The translations under genes were made by a program, and so were the position numbers. Below, in pieces: positions 10,832 to 18,688 of a DNA stretch of 35,629 nt (position 1 is the stretch's first letter; the number at the start of each line of letters is the position of its first letter). The stretch comes from Candidatus Omnitrophota bacterium. GTDB taxonomy: Bacteria > Omnitrophota > Omnitrophia > Omnitrophales > Danuiimicrobiaceae. Under the pieces are notes generated by a model. That model ran no database searches. It was not told where the DNA came from and saw only the letters and a program-made list of their open reading frames with translations. The DNA is taken from assembly GCA_023247075.1 (NCBI GenBank), contig JAHFHD010000002.1:1-35629 (forward strand). Direction: 5' to 3'.

Positions 10832-12496
10832 TTATTTGTTCGTCATGATTTTGTGGGCGGGTTCAGAACCCGCCCCTATAGATATTTCCTTGAAAATTTT
10901 CTCTGCAACGGCCTCAGCTTGTGCGACGCAATCAGGAATTCCAATTCCCCTGTATGCATTTCCGGCGAGGCAAAGTTGAGGAATTGTTTTCAATTGTTCT
11001 TCAATCGCCATTACTCGCTCCAAATGACCCACGCGGTATTGCGGCATTGAATTTGGAAAGCGCTGAATCAAGCAATGTTCCGGCGATGTTTTAATCCCAA
11101 GCAGCTCACGAAGCTCGGCAAGCACGCTTAAGCGAAGCGACTCATCGTTTGAGCCCAAAATACTTTTTGCGCAAGCGCCGCCGAGAAATACCCGAAACAG
11201 TACAAAATTTTCTGGAGCCCGGTCAGCAAATTTAAAGCTTGAGAAGGTGCATCCGATGATTTTCCTCTTTTCAATTTCAGGTACCACAAAACCAAATCCT
11301 TTTTCCTTCATTTGGGTGAATCGACTTCCGCAGAGTTCATCACTGCGGTATGCAAGATTAACGGTCGCCGCCGATTCGTAAGGAATAGATTCAAGCAAAG
11401 AAGAAAGTGAAGGACTCTGCGCAGAAACAAGCTTTGCAGCTTCATAAGCTGGAAGCGCGAGGCATAGCCAATCACTTGTAATTACTTCCCTCTCTTGTAT
11501 GTCATTCTGAGGCGAAGCCGAAGAATCTAGCGAACTTAGATCCTTCGCGGAGTTTACCCTGAGCGCTAGATCCTTCACTCGCGCTTTTGCGCACTCGCAA
11601 GACGTGTCGTTCAGGATGACACGCGAAGGGCTCAGGATGACATTTTTTGGGGGGGATTTTACTTTCTGTAATTCGATTTTCCACTCGCCCCCCGAAAAAT
11701 GAATTTTTGAAACGCGCGTATTTTTCCTAATGGAATCGGGAGGCAGTTTGCGCTCAAGCGCGCGGACTAATGTTTCCATTCCATTTCGAAAAGATTGAAA
11801 GAGACTGTAACGGGGACCGCTCGCTTCCTTCTGTGCGCCATTTTCAGCATCTTTTTCCAAAAAAGATTTTAAAATACTTCCGTGCTCCTGCTCCATTTTT
11901 TGAAATTTTGGAAGTGTGGCGGCGACACTCAGTTCTTCAGTATTCCCTGCGTAAATTCCGCCAATCATCGGTTGGGCAATGCGGCGAAGTGCCTCGCTTC
12001 CAAATCTGCGCCGCACAAAACTTGCAACACTTTCATCTTCATTGCTTTTTCTTTTTGGGACAAAAGGTTCTAGCGCCATCCGCATTCTGCCTCCAAAACT
12101 CACAAGAGGCATTGAAATTAAAGATGAGGGACGCGTCGGAGCGAGCAAATAAAATCCCTTTGGCACCTGCGTCAGTTTTCCGTGACGAACAATAAAACTT
12201 CTTCTAAATTTTTCCTGAGTTGAGATTAGTTCGTCTTGAATGCCAAGTCTTTGGGCGAGACTCGCGACAAAATTTTTTTCTGTAAGAAAAGAATCTGGCC
12301 CGCCCTCAAAAATAAATCCATTTTGTCTTGTGGATTGAATAACGCCGCCCAAACGGTCGCTTGCTTCAAGAAGAGTGATGGAGAGAGGAAATTTTTGACG
12401 AGCGGAAAGTTCAATCAGTCGGTGGGCGGTAGCAAGTCCCGTAATTCCCCCGCCCACAATGACTACCTGAGTCCCAATGCTACGATTCGTAAACAC
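10832..12496 (-). CDS. hemY: Coproporphyrinogen/protoporphyrinogen III oxidase (HemY/CgoX) with 47-codon repeat insertion
   Basis: Oxygen-dependent FAD enzyme that oxidises coproporphyrinogen III (or protoporphyrinogen IX) to the porphyrin. It has GGGITG at residues 15-20, then LLEASDRLGGVIQS, FEGGPDSFLTEK and QPMIGGIYAGN. The C-terminal FAD motif is LCLAGNAYRGIGIPDCV. At 554 residues it is longer than the usual roughly 470, because residues about 286-332 are a translated GTCATYCTGAG element (VILSPSRVILND... to ...ASPQND) in the middle of the protein. The last residues (GAGSEPAH) come from another palindrome at 10855-10875. The start is GTG at 12496, overlapping the hemDE stop as TAGTG. The flanking conserved blocks are undamaged, so I expect activity, but this is unproven. 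Confidence 0.92.
   Translation of the reverse strand: MFTNRSIGTQVVIVGGGITGLATAHRLIELSARQKFPLSITLLEASDRLGGVIQSTRQNGFIFEGGPDSFLTEKNFVASLAQRLGIQDELISTQEKFRRSFIVRHGKLTQVPKGFYLLAPTRPSSLISMPLVSFGGRMRMALEPFVPKRKSNEDESVASFVRRRFGSEALRRIAQPMIGGIYAGNTEELSVAATLPKFQKMEQEHGSILKSFLEKDAENGAQKEASGPRYSLFQSFRNGMETLVRALERKLPPDSIRKNTRVSKIHFSGGEWKIELQKVKSPPKNVILSPSRVILNDTSCECAKARVKDLALRVNSAKDLSSLDSSASPQNDIQEREVITSDWLCLALPAYEAAKLVSAQSPSLSSLLESIPYESAATVNLAYRSDELCGSRFTQMKEKGFGFVVPEIEKRKIIGCTFSSFKFADRAPENFVLFRVFLGGACAKSILGSNDESLRLSVLAELRELLGIKTSPEHCLIQRFPNSMPQYRVGHLERVMAIEEQLKTIPQLCLAGNAYRGIGIPDCVAQAEAVAEKIFKEISIGAGSEPAHKIMTNK
10855..10875. repeat. 21-bp perfect palindrome in the hemY 3' end
   Basis: GGGCGGGTTC-a-GAACCCGCCC, a 10-bp-arm palindrome followed by CCTATA. 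It is translated as part of GAGSEPAH near the HemY C-terminus, past the last conserved motif. It may also fold as a hairpin in the mRNA just ahead of hemH. Confidence 0.8.
11501..11641. repeat. GTCATYCTGAG element inside hemY (141 bp, 47 codons)
   Basis: Left end GTCATTCTGAG, right end CTCAGGATGAC (near-perfect 11-bp inverted ends). The internal blocks are GAATCTAG, TTAGATCCTTCGCGG, AGCGCTAGATCCTTCAC, and a nested 27-nt piece with GCGCTTTTGCGC that is absent from the hemD/E copy. The length is a multiple of three and the frame used is the same as in the other coding copies. Confidence 0.92.
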
Positions 12497-14646
12497 TAAA
12501 CCCCCTCACCGCCCGCTTGCATCGCTTCCCTCTCCCCCTTAAGGGGGAGAGGGTAGGGTGAGGGGGAGAAGCGACTCATTTGATGAACATATTCGACCAG
12601 CGCAATCACGTGCTCAGGTGGCGTCATTGGAAGGACGCCGTGGCCCAAGTTAAAAATATGCCCCTTTCGTCCCGCAGCTTGGCACAGAATTTTTTTGGCG
12701 TGACTTTTGATTTCATCGAGTCCCGCACACAAAACGGCCGGGTCGAGATTTCCTTGAATTCCAACGTCGTGACCCATTTCATTCCAAGCTTGATCAAGCT
12801 CCACACGAAAATCAACTCCAATCACATCCCCTCCGGCTTCGCGCATTTCTTTTAAAAATGCAGCGGTTCCCGTTCCAAAATGAATGACGGGCGCGGCTTT
12901 TTTAAGCCCCTCGATGACAGATTTCGTGTGCGGCAGAACAAAAGTTTTGTAATCACCCGGACTCAAGCACCCCACCCAACTGTCAAAAATTTGAACTGCG
13001 TCTGCGCCCGCTTCAATCTGAAGCGCGAGAAATTGAGTTAGCCCGCGGCTTAACTTTTGCATCAACGCGTGCCACGCACCTGGGTCGCGGTACATTAATT
13101 GTTTTGTCCGGAGAAAATTTTTAGATCCTCCGCCTTCTAATAAGTAGGAGGCGAGCGTAAAAGGTGCGCCGCTAAAACCAAGAAGCGGAATTTTTGGACT
13201 CAGCGCGCGCCTTGTGAGCCGGATGGCTTCAAACACAAATGCGAGGGATTCCTTGGGATTGATTTCTCTGAGTGCATCAGCGTTGTTTGCGTTTAGGGTG
13301 TCACTAGAAATGACAGGCCCTTCTTCTCCCGAATAATCCAGCTCAAAACCGAGCGACTCGGCGGGAAGAAGTAAATCTGAAAAAATAATGGCTGCGTCTG
13401 CCTTAATTTTTTCCTGAGCGAGCACTGTCACCTCAGCGCAAAGTTCGCTATTTTTGCAAAGCTCAAGGAAAGAAACTTTGTTTCGAATGTCGCGGTACTC
13501 TTTTAAATAGCGGCCAGCTTGCCTCATAATCCAAATGGGCGTCACTTCTGTTTCTTCAAGCCGGCAAGCTTTTAGAAATAACATGTCATTCTGAGGCGAA
13601 GCCGACTTGTCCGCCAGCAATATGGCGGAAGAATCTAGTAAACTTAGATCCTTCGCGGAGTTTACCCTGAGCGCTAGATCCTTCACTTCGTTCAGGATGA
13701 CACGCGAAGGGTTCGGGATGACAACGCCTTTCTTAGCATCTTCGTTTTCTATTTTTTTTCGCACAGAAAAAATTGTGGTTTTAGCTAGTATTAATTCTTT
13801 AGAATGTGCCGCTGTTTCAGAAATCAGAGGTCCCATCTTGGGATGCGTGGGCTCAAAATCAACTGGAAGACCATTTTCCAGAATGGTTTCGCTCGTCGTT
13901 GGACCAACCGAAGAAATCACAATGCGGCCAAGAGCCGCACGAAGCGGCGTCTCAAGCCCTGCTTTTGAAGCAAATTGAATGAGATGGCGCACCTGGGCTG
14001 CATTAGTAAATAAAATAATTGAGATTTCTCCGCTAATTATTTTTTGAATTGCCTGAAGAAGCGGAGCTGTGTCATCTGGAAAAGTCCAGCGGTACACCGG
14101 AATTTGTTCCACTCGCGCACCGCGTTTCTTAAGCGCTGTTAAAAGCAAATCATTGGCAATTCCGTACTCCTGAATGGCTACTGTGCGGCCTTCGAGCGAA
14201 ACACTTCTTTCGCTTAAATCCAGAGCTTCAAGAATTTCGCGCCACGTATTGGGCTCCGGAACATGAATTGAAATTGGAATTTGATATTCCTTAAGCACTC
14301 GCGCGGGTTTTGGGCCGCGCGCAACGATGACCAGCGTGCTTAATTTTTGAATCAGCACTCCGGATGAATCTTGTTTAGAAAGAAAATCAAGCAACATTCG
14401 GGTGCCTACACCCGTCATTAAAATCAGAACATCTATTTTGCCTTCGGAGAGCTTTTTTTGAAAAGCGGATATTGCTGGATTACTTGTGAGTGGGACTTCC
14501 TTGAGTGAAGGCGCCTGAACTACTTTTCCTCCATAACGCTCAATACTTTGAGCCATTACCTCCGCCATCCGGCTCTCAAAACAAACGACGGAGACGCCAT
14601 TAAAATTCGCCCGGGCTTGTGTAGATTCCGCATTTTGGTTTGCCAT
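12496..14646 (-). CDS. hemDE: Uroporphyrinogen-III synthase / uroporphyrinogen decarboxylase fused ORF
   Basis: One 716-residue frame carries two consecutive haem enzymes. Residues 1-308 are HemD-like: VVCFESRMAEVMAQSIERYGGKV, VLILMTGVGTRMLL, VPVYRW, IILFTNAAQVRHLI and ISSVGPTTSETILENGL. It closes the hydroxymethylbilane ring with D-ring inversion. Residues 309-354 are a translated repeat element. Residues 355-716 are HemE: TPIWIMRQAGRYLKEYR with the substrate-binding Arg, IIFSDLLLP with the catalytic Asp, APFTLASYLLEGG, QIFDSWVG and HIFNLGHGV. M355 directly follows the element and could be an internal start, but has no ribosome-binding site. The C-terminal tail (SPSPYPLPLKGERE...) derives from another repeat. 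ATG 14646 has only weak upstream purines. Confidence 0.93.
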   Translation of the reverse strand: MANQNAESTQARANFNGVSVVCFESRMAEVMAQSIERYGGKVVQAPSLKEVPLTSNPAISAFQKKLSEGKIDVLILMTGVGTRMLLDFLSKQDSSGVLIQKLSTLVIVARGPKPARVLKEYQIPISIHVPEPNTWREILEALDLSERSVSLEGRTVAIQEYGIANDLLLTALKKRGARVEQIPVYRWTFPDDTAPLLQAIQKIISGEISIILFTNAAQVRHLIQFASKAGLETPLRAALGRIVISSVGPTTSETILENGLPVDFEPTHPKMGPLISETAAHSKELILAKTTIFSVRKKIENEDAKKGVVIPNPSRVILNEVKDLALRVNSAKDLSLLDSSAILLADKSASPQNDMLFLKACRLEETEVTPIWIMRQAGRYLKEYRDIRNKVSFLELCKNSELCAEVTVLAQEKIKADAAIIFSDLLLPAESLGFELDYSGEEGPVISSDTLNANNADALREINPKESLAFVFEAIRLTRRALSPKIPLLGFSGAPFTLASYLLEGGGSKNFLRTKQLMYRDPGAWHALMQKLSRGLTQFLALQIEAGADAVQIFDSWVGCLSPGDYKTFVLPHTKSVIEGLKKAAPVIHFGTGTAAFLKEMREAGGDVIGVDFRVELDQAWNEMGHDVGIQGNLDPAVLCAGLDEIKSHAKKILCQAAGRKGHIFNLGHGVLPMTPPEHVIALVEYVHQMSRFSPSPYPLPLKGEREAMQAGGEGV
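12501..12566. repeat. CCCCCTCACC inverted-repeat element at the hemDE 3' end (66 bp)
   Basis: Bounded by CCCCCTCACC and GGGTGAGGGGG, with a perfect 13-bp-arm core hairpin at 12528-12553 (CCCTCTCCCCCTT and its complement, no loop). It is translated in frame as the last residues of HemE, and the TAG stop lies just outside it. Related hairpins occur at 22321-22429 and 2062-2080. Confidence 0.85.
13585..13722. repeat. GTCATYCTGAG element at the HemD/HemE junction (138 bp, 46 codons)
   Basis: Left end GTCATTCTGAG, right end GTTCGGGATGAC. Compared with the hemY copy it carries a nested 24-nt insertion (ACTTGTCCGCC...ATGGCGG) and lacks the 27-nt one. It begins right after the ATG of the HemE homologous region on the minus strand, so it is exactly the linker between the two enzymes. 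Confidence 0.92.
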
Positions 14647-16277: not shown

Positions 16278-17261
16278 TCATAATTTTAGCCGCGCTCGTC
16301 TTTCGGCAAGCAAATCCAAATAGGATTTTTTCATTTCCTCGCTTAGAAAACTTTGGCGAATCAGGCGGTCCCATTCAGGAAATGCGTCTTGCAATTTTCT
16401 AAGACAAGTTTGGATGGCTTTTTCATCCAAACCCAAACGCTCATGACCAAAATAGTTCACCAAATGATTATGAGTCAGTTTGGATTTCTTCCCCATAAGC
16501 GGCACAGCAAGTTCTTCTTTTGATTTTCCTGAAGTCGCAATCGTGCTGTTTAAAAGATCATAAGCCGGAGCAAGTTTAAAAACCTGATTATCCTCTGAAA
16601 AAAGAGAAAAGTTTTTGGCGTGCATGTCTTCATTGCCCGTCAAAAAACAGAAAATGACTCTGAGGAAAAATTTGCGGCATTCGAGTGCGGGAAAAGTGGT
16701 GCGCATTTGAACCACATTGGCAAAGCTCTCCATTGAGGTATTGTATTTAACTTCCCTCGCCAAACCGAGAAGCTGTCCAAAATCTTCCAGATATAATTTT
16801 GCACTTTTTTTGCGGTCAAACCGTTTGATAAAATAAGTACGGGTCCCACCCTTTGCGTAAACTAATCCATGCACAGGCACTTCAATGCCCACCGCTGCTG
16901 CAAGTCGCATGGTCAAGTCTTCATTCTCCGGCACTTCACGATAACCTGCAGGCGCAGGTTTTAAAATATAAGTTCCTCCGCGATCCACAATTTTGAACCG
17001 GCCTGCCGAAACAGCAAGTTTGGCGCTCAGCTTAACCTGCACGCCCTGGATTGACATTTTTCCTGCACGAGCCGCAGCTTCTTCCCGTTGTTCTTCCACA
17101 GTCAGATTGAGTGGTTCAAGTTTTTTGAGCTGAGGAGAAAGAAGTTTCAAACCCTTCGGAGAATAATGCTCACCGGCCGGAATCTCACTGTAAGTAATGG
17201 CGCACAGTGAATTTTGTAGTCCCGTAGACGAAATACTGTGAGAAGTATTTTTATGATTCAC
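16278..17261 (-). CDS. hipT: HipT-like serine/threonine kinase toxin
   Basis: Kinase toxin of a tripartite HipBST module. Characterised HipT from enteropathogenic E. coli phosphorylates tryptophanyl-tRNA synthetase; the target here is unknown. The 327-residue protein lacks the N-subdomain-1 of HipA. It begins with HYSPKGLKLLSPQLKKL and has the glycine-rich loop region S70-I71-Q72-G-V-Q-V-K. It also has TYILKPAP, YFIKRFDR, the catalytic-loop GNEDMHAKNFSLF (D212) and the metal-binding APAYDLL (D235). S70 is the candidate autophosphorylation site; Q72 sits where EPEC HipT has its second serine. The start is GTG at 17261, with GGAG 7 nt upstream inside the end of hipS, giving an 11-nt overlap. 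Confidence 0.88.
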   Translation of the reverse strand: MNHKNTSHSISSTGLQNSLCAITYSEIPAGEHYSPKGLKLLSPQLKKLEPLNLTVEEQREEAAARAGKMSIQGVQVKLSAKLAVSAGRFKIVDRGGTYILKPAPAGYREVPENEDLTMRLAAAVGIEVPVHGLVYAKGGTRTYFIKRFDRKKSAKLYLEDFGQLLGLAREVKYNTSMESFANVVQMRTTFPALECRKFFLRVIFCFLTGNEDMHAKNFSLFSEDNQVFKLAPAYDLLNSTIATSGKSKEELAVPLMGKKSKLTHNHLVNYFGHERLGLDEKAIQTCLRKLQDAFPEWDRLIRQSFLSEEMKKSYLDLLAERRARLKL

Positions 17262-17562
17262 GCCACTTCTCCACAGTTACTGCCCCAACAAGATCACGTC
17301 CCACAGCTAAAAGTTGACTAAAATAATTGCGGCGGTCAATTTTAGTTCTTCTTAAAAACGCCTCAAGATTCACGCCTTCTGGAAGCAAGCCATCAAAAAA
17401 AGATGGAAATTCTTTAAATTCAAATCGTTCTTTTTCGCGCGGCATAGTCCGCGAGATTGAAGGGCCTTTGTAATCTTTGTTGTATTCAAAAACATAATGT
17501 TCACTCTCTTCGGTTAAAATACCTGCGGGACGGCTATTGAAAAAAACCTGAGCTTTTCTCAT
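17251..17562 (-). CDS. hipS: HipS-like protein (HipA N-terminal subdomain), probable antitoxin
   Basis: A 103-residue protein equivalent to the detached N-terminal subdomain of HipA: VFFNSRPAGILTEESEHYVFEYNKDY, ISRTMP and FPSFFDGLLPEGVNLEAFLRR. In the E. coli HipBST system HipS is the antitoxin that inserts a Trp into the kinase active site. Here the only Trp is W100 (VEKWRES), near the C-terminus, so the inhibitory contact may differ. The start codon overlaps the hipB stop as ATGA, and the gene overlaps hipT by 11 nt. Separate frames with overlaps and an HTH gene in front indicate a genuine three-gene system rather than a frameshifted hipA. Confidence 0.87.
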   Translation of the reverse strand: MRKAQVFFNSRPAGILTEESEHYVFEYNKDYKGPSISRTMPREKERFEFKEFPSFFDGLLPEGVNLEAFLRRTKIDRRNYFSQLLAVGRDLVGAVTVEKWRES

Positions 17563-17804
17563 TCTTTAGTTTCCTTCATGGCTTGCAAAAGCGGACTGAG
17601 TAAACGAACTTCAATATTCAAAGCGTCGAGAATGTGCAGCAAGGTGTCCACTTGAATTGTCATTTTACCGTGCTCGAGGTCAAAGATAACGGTTTTCCCG
17701 ACACCCGCAAGTTCCGCAAGCGCTGTCTGGGATAATGAGCTTTTCTTGCGATGCGTGCGCACGAGCTCAGGAATTTCTTTTTTGAATTTATCGATATTTT
17801 TCAT
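17559..17804 (-). CDS. hipB: HipB-like helix-turn-helix regulator
   Basis: An 81-residue Xre/HTH_3 DNA-binding protein. The helix-turn-helix covers about residues 25-50 (LSQTALAELAGVGKTVIFDLEHGK), followed by VDTLLHILDALNIEVRLLSPL, the dimerisation part seen in HipB. It is expected to repress the hipBST promoter, probably as a complex with HipS and HipT. The start at 17804 lies 25 bp from the first of three palindromic sites matching TACTG-N6-CAGTA, the likely operators. It is the first gene of the operon. Confidence 0.9.
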   Translation of the reverse strand: MKNIDKFKKEIPELVRTHRKKSSLSQTALAELAGVGKTVIFDLEHGKMTIQVDTLLHILDALNIEVRLLSPLLQAMKETKE

Positions 17805-17828
17805 TATTCTTAGCCTTATTGAGTATAA

Positions 17829-17844
17829 TACTGCTTTAACAGTA
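17829..17844. promoter_or_regulatory. hipBST operator-like palindrome 1
   Basis: TACTG-ctttaa-CAGTA, perfect 5-bp arms with a 6-nt centre. It lies just downstream of the -10-like TATAAT on the minus strand and 25 bp before hipB, where a repressor would block transcription start. Confidence 0.7.
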
Positions 17845-17845
17845 A

Positions 17846-17872
17846 ATTATATTAGTTTTATCCATATTTCAA
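17846..17872 (-). promoter_or_regulatory. Candidate hipBST promoter
   Basis: On the minus strand TTGAAA (17872-17867) and TATAAT (17851-17846) are separated by 15 bp, a little short of the optimum. Transcription would start inside operator-like palindrome 1. This is inferred from sequence only. Confidence 0.5.
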
Positions 17873-17900
17873 GAAAAAATAGCGCAAAATGATAACTTTT

Positions 17901-17916
17901 TACTGTTTCAAAAGTA
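17901..17916. promoter_or_regulatory. hipBST operator-like palindrome 2
   Basis: TACTG-tttcaa-AAGTA, one mismatch from the consensus TACTG-N6-CAGTA. It begins exactly 72 bp from site 1 and lies upstream of the -35-like sequence. Confidence 0.6.
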
Positions 17917-17972
17917 AATTTAGCTTATTTTAATCTGATTATTGGTTTGTAAGTTTTAAAAACTTAAATTAT

Positions 17973-17988
17973 TACTGTCTAGGCAGTA
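17973..17988. promoter_or_regulatory. hipBST operator-like palindrome 3
   Basis: TACTG-tctagg-CAGTA, within a larger perfect ATTACTG/CAGTAAT palindrome. It begins exactly 72 bp from site 2. The gap 17805-18046 otherwise holds AT-rich sequence and no gene. Confidence 0.65.
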
Positions 17989-18046
17989 ATTTATTGTCTT
18001 AAATCTAAAAACTGTCCACTATAATAAATTCTTCTTGGTTTTTTTA

Positions 18047-18688
18047 TTACCAAATCCACGGAATTAATTTTTTTACTTTCCGGCAATAAAGTTGATAATC
18101 CTCTCCTAAATTTCGCTTTAACAACCCTTCTTCCAATCGTATGCGGCGACGAAATGCCAGAGGCAGTGCAACAATCGCTACAAGAGTTGAGAACCAAGCA
18201 TGTAAAAAAAGAGGTCCAAAAAGATAAGTTAGCATGGCTCCTGCATAACTGGGGTGTCTCACAAAACGGTATGGTCCGGAGCAAATGATTTTTTGATGTG
18301 ATTCGACTTTGATGTGCCAAGTGAAAAATTTCCCCAACGTCGCTACGGCCCAGGTTCTAAGGACGAGTCCCGACAACATGAAAATTAGGGAAATCCAGGC
18401 GAGCCCATCCCACTCAAAACTTCGCGGGTACTGAAGATAAGCGGCCTCCATAATTGCTAGAACCTGCGTCAGGCTGCAAGACCAGAGGATTTGAGATGCT
18501 GTATTTCTGTCTTCCGTGGGAGCAGACCGGTCAAAGGGCTTGTAAGACGGTTGAAATAAATGAGCAAAGACCCCGATTGCAAACATCAGCCAAAGCTGCA
18601 AAGCAAACACCGCATCTGCATTTCCTAGAGCAGGAACAATTACAATGATGAATGAAAATAGGATTCCCTGGATCAATCTCTGAATCAT
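18047..18688 (-). CDS. Isoprenylcysteine-carboxyl-methyltransferase-like membrane methyltransferase
   Basis: A 213-residue integral membrane protein of the ICMT/PEMT-like family, which uses S-adenosylmethionine to methylate carboxyl, phospholipid or small-molecule substrates. About five hydrophobic helices precede the signature SGPYRFVRHPSYAGAML, which binds AdoMet, and RIRLEEGLLKRNLGEDYQLYCRKV, the usual C-terminal E-E/Y segment. It is the last gene of a four-gene operon; its ATG overlaps the GH3 stop as TAATG. By context it could methylate the product of the GH3 ligase, possibly a free carboxylate, but that is inference. Confidence 0.85.
   Translation of the reverse strand: MIQRLIQGILFSFIIVIVPALGNADAVFALQLWLMFAIGVFAHLFQPSYKPFDRSAPTEDRNTASQILWSCSLTQVLAIMEAAYLQYPRSFEWDGLAWISLIFMLSGLVLRTWAVATLGKFFTWHIKVESHQKIICSGPYRFVRHPSYAGAMLTYLFGPLFLHAWFSTLVAIVALPLAFRRRIRLEEGLLKRNLGEDYQLYCRKVKKLIPWIW

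Follow-up and report, generated by a model that had tools for sequence, protein, structure and literature searches.

Why should three nearly identical palindromes stand at exactly equal intervals in front of a toxin-antitoxin operon? In such modules the timing of toxin release is governed by autoregulation, and the question addressed here is by what means multiple antitoxin sites act together in HipBST systems.

Three palindromes upstream of a hipBST operon

Rescanning the 35,629-nucleotide stretch of DNA analysed here (the window) bore out the preliminary description of three TACTG-N6-CAGTA palindromes beginning at 17829, 17901 and 17973. Sites 1 (TACTGCTTTAACAGTA, 17829-17844) and 3 (TACTGTCTAGGCAGTA, 17973-17988) match the pattern exactly, site 2 (TACTGTTTCAAAAGTA, 17901-17916) carries one mismatch, and the distances between consecutive sites are 72 and 72 bp. 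Each site comprises 18 nt once the outer bases are counted. On one side the sites are bounded by the stop codon of an ICMT-family gene, on the other by the start of hipB, and we therefore assigned them to the hipB promoter region. The features of the locus are:

16278..17261, minus strand: hipT, 327 aa, HipA_C kinase without N-subdomain-1, toxin by homology (Pfam HipA_C, 7e-45)
17251..17562, minus strand: hipS, 103 aa, HipA N-subdomain-1, antitoxin by homology (Pfam Couple_hipA, 3e-24; TIGR03071, 9e-26)
17559..17804, minus strand: hipB, 81 aa, Cro/C1-type HTH repressor with a KTV-type recognition helix (Pfam HTH_3, 2.4e-9)
17828..17845: O1, candidate HipB operator nearest hipB, reading TTACTG-TTAAAG-CAGTAT on the minus strand (PWM 20.8 bits)
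17846..17851, minus strand: possible -10 hexamer TATAAT abutting O1, found by eye, with no good -35 at 16-18 bp
17846..17899: gap O1-O2, 54 bp, A/T phased to the operator centres with 7 periods per 72 bp (phase +18 degrees)
17900..17917: O2, degenerate candidate operator with one core mismatch, reading TTACTT-TTGAAA-CAGTAA on the minus strand (PWM 15.5 bits)
17918..17971: gap O2-O3, 54 bp, A/T phased to the operator centres (phase -6 degrees)
17972..17989: O3, symmetric candidate operator, reading TTACTG-CCTAGA-CAGTAA on the minus strand (PWM 21.0 bits)
18047-18688, minus strand: ICMT-family gene, other flank of the intergenic region

The gene order hipB-hipS-hipT, the overlapping reading frames and the split HipA are those of a tripartite hipBST toxin-antitoxin operon. 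The nearest solved chain to HipB is HipB of Legionella pneumophila, HipB(Lp) (8ezt, 9e-18), and the nearest to HipT, whose GTG start is uncertain (homology starts near residue 18-20), is HipT(Lp) (8ezr, 2e-99; 7vkb, 1.5e-99). HipT matches E. coli O127 HipT at an E-value of about 1e-25 and HipA at about 1e-10, so that both proteins are closer to HipT(Lp) and HipB(Lp) than to hipBA proteins. HipS is known to neutralise the HipT kinase in the E. coli O127 and Legionella systems, and a toxic kinase neutralised by HipS is predicted here by homology. The closest relative of HipB, at 79% identity, comes from an assembly labelled 'Chlamydiae bacterium' (locus L012). Among 218 genomes of the source genome's phylum we found no close HipB besides its own, only eight weak HTH matches near 1e-13, which suggests that this hipBST operon may have been acquired horizontally.

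The intergenic region upstream of hipB measures 242 bp and is 78% A+T. A motif-free scan of it for arm5-N6-arm5 inverted repeats, allowing at most one mismatched pair and demanding at least two G/C per arm, returned exactly O1, O2 and O3. When the region was shuffled with its dinucleotides preserved, three TACTG-N6-CAGTA sites were found in 0 of 5000 shuffles and at least one in 27 of 5000. The entire 2.28-Mb genome contains the exact pattern at sites 1 and 3 only. Palindromes with up to two mismatches are in mild excess across the window (11, against 6.1 +/- 2.4 by chance); it is their clustering and periodicity, not their number, that is the significant feature.

Two other roles for the palindromes were considered and rejected. 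For a wider HipB regulon the genome offers no further exact site; one-mismatch matches are scattered and fewer than those of a reversed-pattern control (32 vs 120). As an RNA element the palindromes have no credible match in Rfam and form weak hairpins (-5 to -6 kcal/mol), and we prefer to read them as DNA operators because they match the proven HipB operators of Legionella.

In Legionella, three 18-nt imperfect palindromes upstream of hipBST serve as HipB operators, the first 24 nt upstream of hipB and all evenly spaced with 53-bp gaps (PMC10653801). HipB(Lp) bound each of the three in EMSA (gel shift), and HipT and HipS-HipT gave additional shifts of the HipB(Lp)-DNA complexes (PMC10653801). 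The window resembles this array in the number of its operators, in their 18-nt size and TTACYG-type inverted repeats, and in the position of the first, whose 16-bp core stops 24 nt short of the hipB ATG; its arms and its O2 differ slightly. The Legionella step is 53 + 18 = 71 bp and that of the window, with 54-bp gaps, 72 bp. Because the window's sites belong with these proven operators as one kind of element, their existence and likely role were already known. The main text of PMC10653801, which covers Legionella, is silent on helical phasing, bending, looping and wrapping, and the new part appears to be the geometry, i.e. spacing and phasing.

Other systems set limits on how far the comparison extends. 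E. coli O127 HipBST (7ab3/7ab4/7ab5) is likewise a tripartite operon with a homologous HipT, and its HipB represses the hipBST promoter (PMC10627512); however, that promoter is reported to lack the Legionella-type operator motif (PMC10653801), and the operator triplet is therefore no rule for all HipBST. In E. coli K-12 hipBA, too, several palindromes of 18 nt precede the gene of a Cro/C1-type HipB that, together with a kinase toxin, is autoregulatory, but there HipA is one chain and the four sites read TATCC-N8-GGATA at steps of 28, 39 and 28 bp. Differing in both sequence and spacing, the window-type array is a solution separate from that of hipBA.

Operator spacing across related loci

To see how the spacing behaves elsewhere, we collected hipB loci by similarity to the HipB of the window, a choice that places E. 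coli- and Haemophilus-type HipBST outside the sample. A starting set of 67 loci from GTDB genomes was extended via Legionellales, Bacteroidota, Neomarinimicrobiota, Gammaproteobacteria, Bacteroidales and Desulfobulbia to 133 distinct loci. Upstream of hipB we scanned with a symmetric weight matrix, TTAC[TC]G..AT..C[AG]GTAA, which was built without spacing information; at its threshold of 8 bits, chance alone should yield about one site in the 68 promoters of the first set.

The steps between neighbouring sites are sharply quantised. In these loci, which span many phyla, two classes take up 204 of the 212 steps, 60-62 bp (52 steps; mean 61.04, sd 0.48 bp) or 69-73 bp (152 steps; mean 71.31, sd 0.69 bp), the latter including both Legionella and the window, and none lies at 63-68 or 74-88 bp. 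The class means differ by 10.27 bp, approximately one helical turn. Among the eight remaining steps (21, 89, 106, 141, 144, 193, 216 and 217 bp), those of 141 and 144 bp correspond roughly to two steps and those of 216 and 217 bp to three; the 106-bp step, which is out of register, belongs to L031 and the 89-bp step to L065, a hipB without a detected hipS. The distance from O1 to the ATG, by contrast, is variable (sd 15.6 bp). In 119 loci we counted three operators in 89, two in 18 and four in two, so three operators are not obligatory.

The two classes are related by changes of about one turn. The 61-bp class belongs mostly to one Bacteroidales clade on the HipB+HipS tree, on which the spacing labels require at least four changes, many forks being unsupported. 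In L022 the O1-O2 gap is longer by an insertion of exactly 10 bp, which gives a step of 71 bp, compared with 61 in its close relatives L013, L021 and L023. Mixed arrays also exist, with steps of 71+61 in L162 and, between weaker sites, 72+60 in L058. Variable spacing in close relatives had been named beforehand as one observation that would count against the proposal. In L012 the 72-bp O1-O2 distance is kept exactly, but its O2 is weak and its O3 not recognisable.

Several loci deserve separate mention. The sequence between O1 and the ATG is about 17 bp shorter in L012. L013 and L017 carry four operators in one register, at 62/62/61 and 61/61/61 bp. L042 has two good operators 71 bp apart, with no hipS or hipT detected by tblastn within 3 kb downstream, and its hipB is possibly an orphan repressor. 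L053 combines an in-frame stop in hipB with decayed operators and a hipT match that is truncated; array and operon seem to be decaying in step. A search of viral_contigs yielded one distant HipB, without operators, and a plasmid search few HipB relatives.

The spacing is also found with a second operator sequence. In 14 loci of the Desulfobulbia clade of the tree (numbered within L052-L072 and L182-L187), the operator is TTCCC-N8-GGGAA, found by its own matrix, and the step measures 70-73 bp in 23 of 24 cases. The A/T content of these gaps follows seven periods per step at a phase of -4 degrees, above 2000 of 2000 shuffles. Since the Desulfobulbia loci share step and phase with the other operator family, the spacing has outlived a change of operator sequence. 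The HipB recognition helix starts with KN[ML] in 12 of 12 readable TTCCC loci and with KT in nearly all TTACYG loci, a candidate specificity code in which KT would go with TTACYG and KN with TTCCC.

A/T phasing of the gaps

What is conserved in a gap is its length, not its sequence: among 36 representatives with less than 70% HipB identity, gaps are 36% identical, compared with 33-34% when shuffled, and never more than 60%. The preliminary description had offered, as one of two readings, that the array arose by tandem duplication of 72 bp and then decayed except for conserved operator cores, which would make the spacing a functionless relic. The equal spacing itself would fit, and the two gaps of the window are slightly alike, with 24 of 54 positions identical (44%) against 18.5 (34%) in shuffles (p = 0.064); in a few loci, e.g. 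L054 and L023, the gap-gap z-score comes near 3. Over 37 loci, however, this z averages 0.4-0.6, TRF finds no tandem array, and the slight likeness can stem from a shared A/T phase. Gaps vary freely between loci, with step lengths that stray from 61 or 71 by no more than about 2 bp, the spacing changes by about one turn, and a different operator family has the same spacing. We therefore consider a decayed repeat extremely improbable.

The gaps do, in contrast, share a periodic base composition. In the 71-72 bp steps the A/T content is 0.99 beside the operator, then falls and rises from 0.49 at +7 to 0.96 at +10, 0.55 at +16, 0.90 at +20, 0.48 at +25, 0.83 at +32, 0.56 at +36, 0.93 at +41, 0.46 at +46 and 0.99 at +52. 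For the 84 gaps of the 71-bp class, the Fourier amplitude at seven periods per step is 0.089 at a phase of 2 degrees, against a maximum of 0.014 in shuffles and 0.0225 in a rotation null; at six and eight periods it is 0.008 and 0.024. Trimming 12 bp from each gap end left amplitudes of 0.066 and 0.079 (null maxima 0.028 and 0.034), in interiors so short that six, seven and eight periods are not sharply separable. Six periods fit the 61-bp class (amplitude 0.089, phase 5 degrees), significantly when the gap is taken whole but not in its interior alone, and phasing across the middle of the gap is thus shown for the 71-bp class only. The two gaps of the window are jointly phased (p = 0.0001 vs shuffles).

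Bacterial DNA is known to carry a 10-11 bp A/T periodicity. It could accordingly be argued that the phased A/T is this general genomic periodicity, or that it recruits a nucleoid protein of the HU, IHF or H-NS type, HipB sites having merely been placed there. Yet the phase is locked to the operator centres, lying within 60 degrees of the operator register in 98 of 100 gaps, and exactly seven or six periods fit the step. The pattern is common to distant phyla and dies away within roughly 1 to 1.5 turns of the array's ends: upstream of the outermost operators only the first 20 bp carry a clear signal, and downstream it is borderline as far as about 30 bp. A nucleoid protein or background periodicity is therefore a very unlikely source of the pattern.

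Proposed geometry of the repressing complex

Taken per turn, the two classes agree, with 71.31/7 = 10.19 bp and 61.04/6 = 10.17 bp. The proposed closeness of 72 bp to seven helical turns holds at about 10.2-10.3 bp per turn and not at 10.5, the value for relaxed DNA. Values below 10.5 would be expected of a left-handed wrap or of overtwisting. When a dimer of the Cro/C1 type recognises its operator, the minor groove at the operator centre faces the protein. Because A/T peaks lie at whole turns from that centre, the corresponding minor grooves are on one side, and the peaks would favour curvature towards HipB, as in nucleosomal DNA, where phased A/T, at about 10.2 bp to the turn, has its minor groove turned in towards the protein.

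We consider it likely that the three palindromes serve a Legionella-type hipBST as its autoregulatory operators, on which phased HipB dimers curve the promoter and are bridged into a compact repressing complex. A HipB dimer would bind each of the three operators, and the whole-turn spacing would set the bound dimers on one face of the DNA. The A/T-patterned gaps would then bend with the minor groove in on the HipB side, so that the promoter curves towards the dimers, and the HipT and HipS-HipT complexes that HipB carries would link neighbouring sites. The resulting single compact complex, wrapped or looped over about 160-185 bp, would cover O1 and the core promoter and shut off transcription. 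For the window we infer HipB binding to its sites, curvature of the DNA, bridging between sites and HipT/HipS as the bridges. Helically phased binding that would curve DNA towards HipB is well supported by the sequence comparisons, and hipBST is probably silenced by its promoter curling around the repressor complex. The phasing half of the earlier proposal of phased binding that wraps or loops DNA is thus strongly supported by the quantised spacing, the one-turn changes and the operator-phased A/T, in the window as well. A sigma-70 promoter scan told little, giving one site vs 2.1 expected, and the TATAAT abutting O1 is a weak candidate because the scan did not call it.

A simpler possibility is that independent HipB dimers occupy separate sites, spaced by steric packing of rigid HipBST or by free promoter elements, with no curvature or bridging. 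In Legionella, 50-bp fragments with a single operator bound HipB individually, and cooperativity was not reported (PMC10653801). The Legionella O1 overlaps the predicted promoter and could repress by itself, and two-operator loci occur. Independent binding would nevertheless leave unexplained the whole-turn quantisation, the one-turn insertion, and an A/T phasing that spans 50 bp with a turn of about 10.2 bp and fades beyond the array; straight DNA, at 10.5 bp to the turn, would lose the register. We regard it as unlikely.

The effect of lac-type DNA loops depends on whole-turn spacing. What differs from such loops and from nucleosome-like DNA is that both features are here combined in a short three-site toxin-antitoxin promoter, the wrapping being putative. 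More tentatively, and with some doubt, a nucleosome-like particle may silence HipBST operons in many phyla, the DNA making a left-handed wrap around a HipB/HipS/HipT core in which each step (71 bp, in Bacteroidales 61) takes roughly one superhelical turn. If so, the operators would stack, toxin complexes would touch between turns, and the 10.2-bp phasing would reflect the wrap.

Whole-turn spacing, A/T phase and about 10.2 bp per turn together form a quantitative rule that holds in many phyla and with two operator sequences. Combined with the natural one-turn spacing variants it opens the geometry of the repression complex to direct testing, and it offers a cheap finder of HipBST operons and a reader of the HipB recognition code.

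Elsewhere in the window, a dispersed repeat (13592-13731) lies in frame inside the ORF at 12496-14646 on the minus strand, an apparent HemD-HemE fusion gene, where it adds residues such as VILNEVKDL between the HemD and HemE domains. Other full or partial copies are located at about 11517, 24791, 30220, 32938 and 35443.
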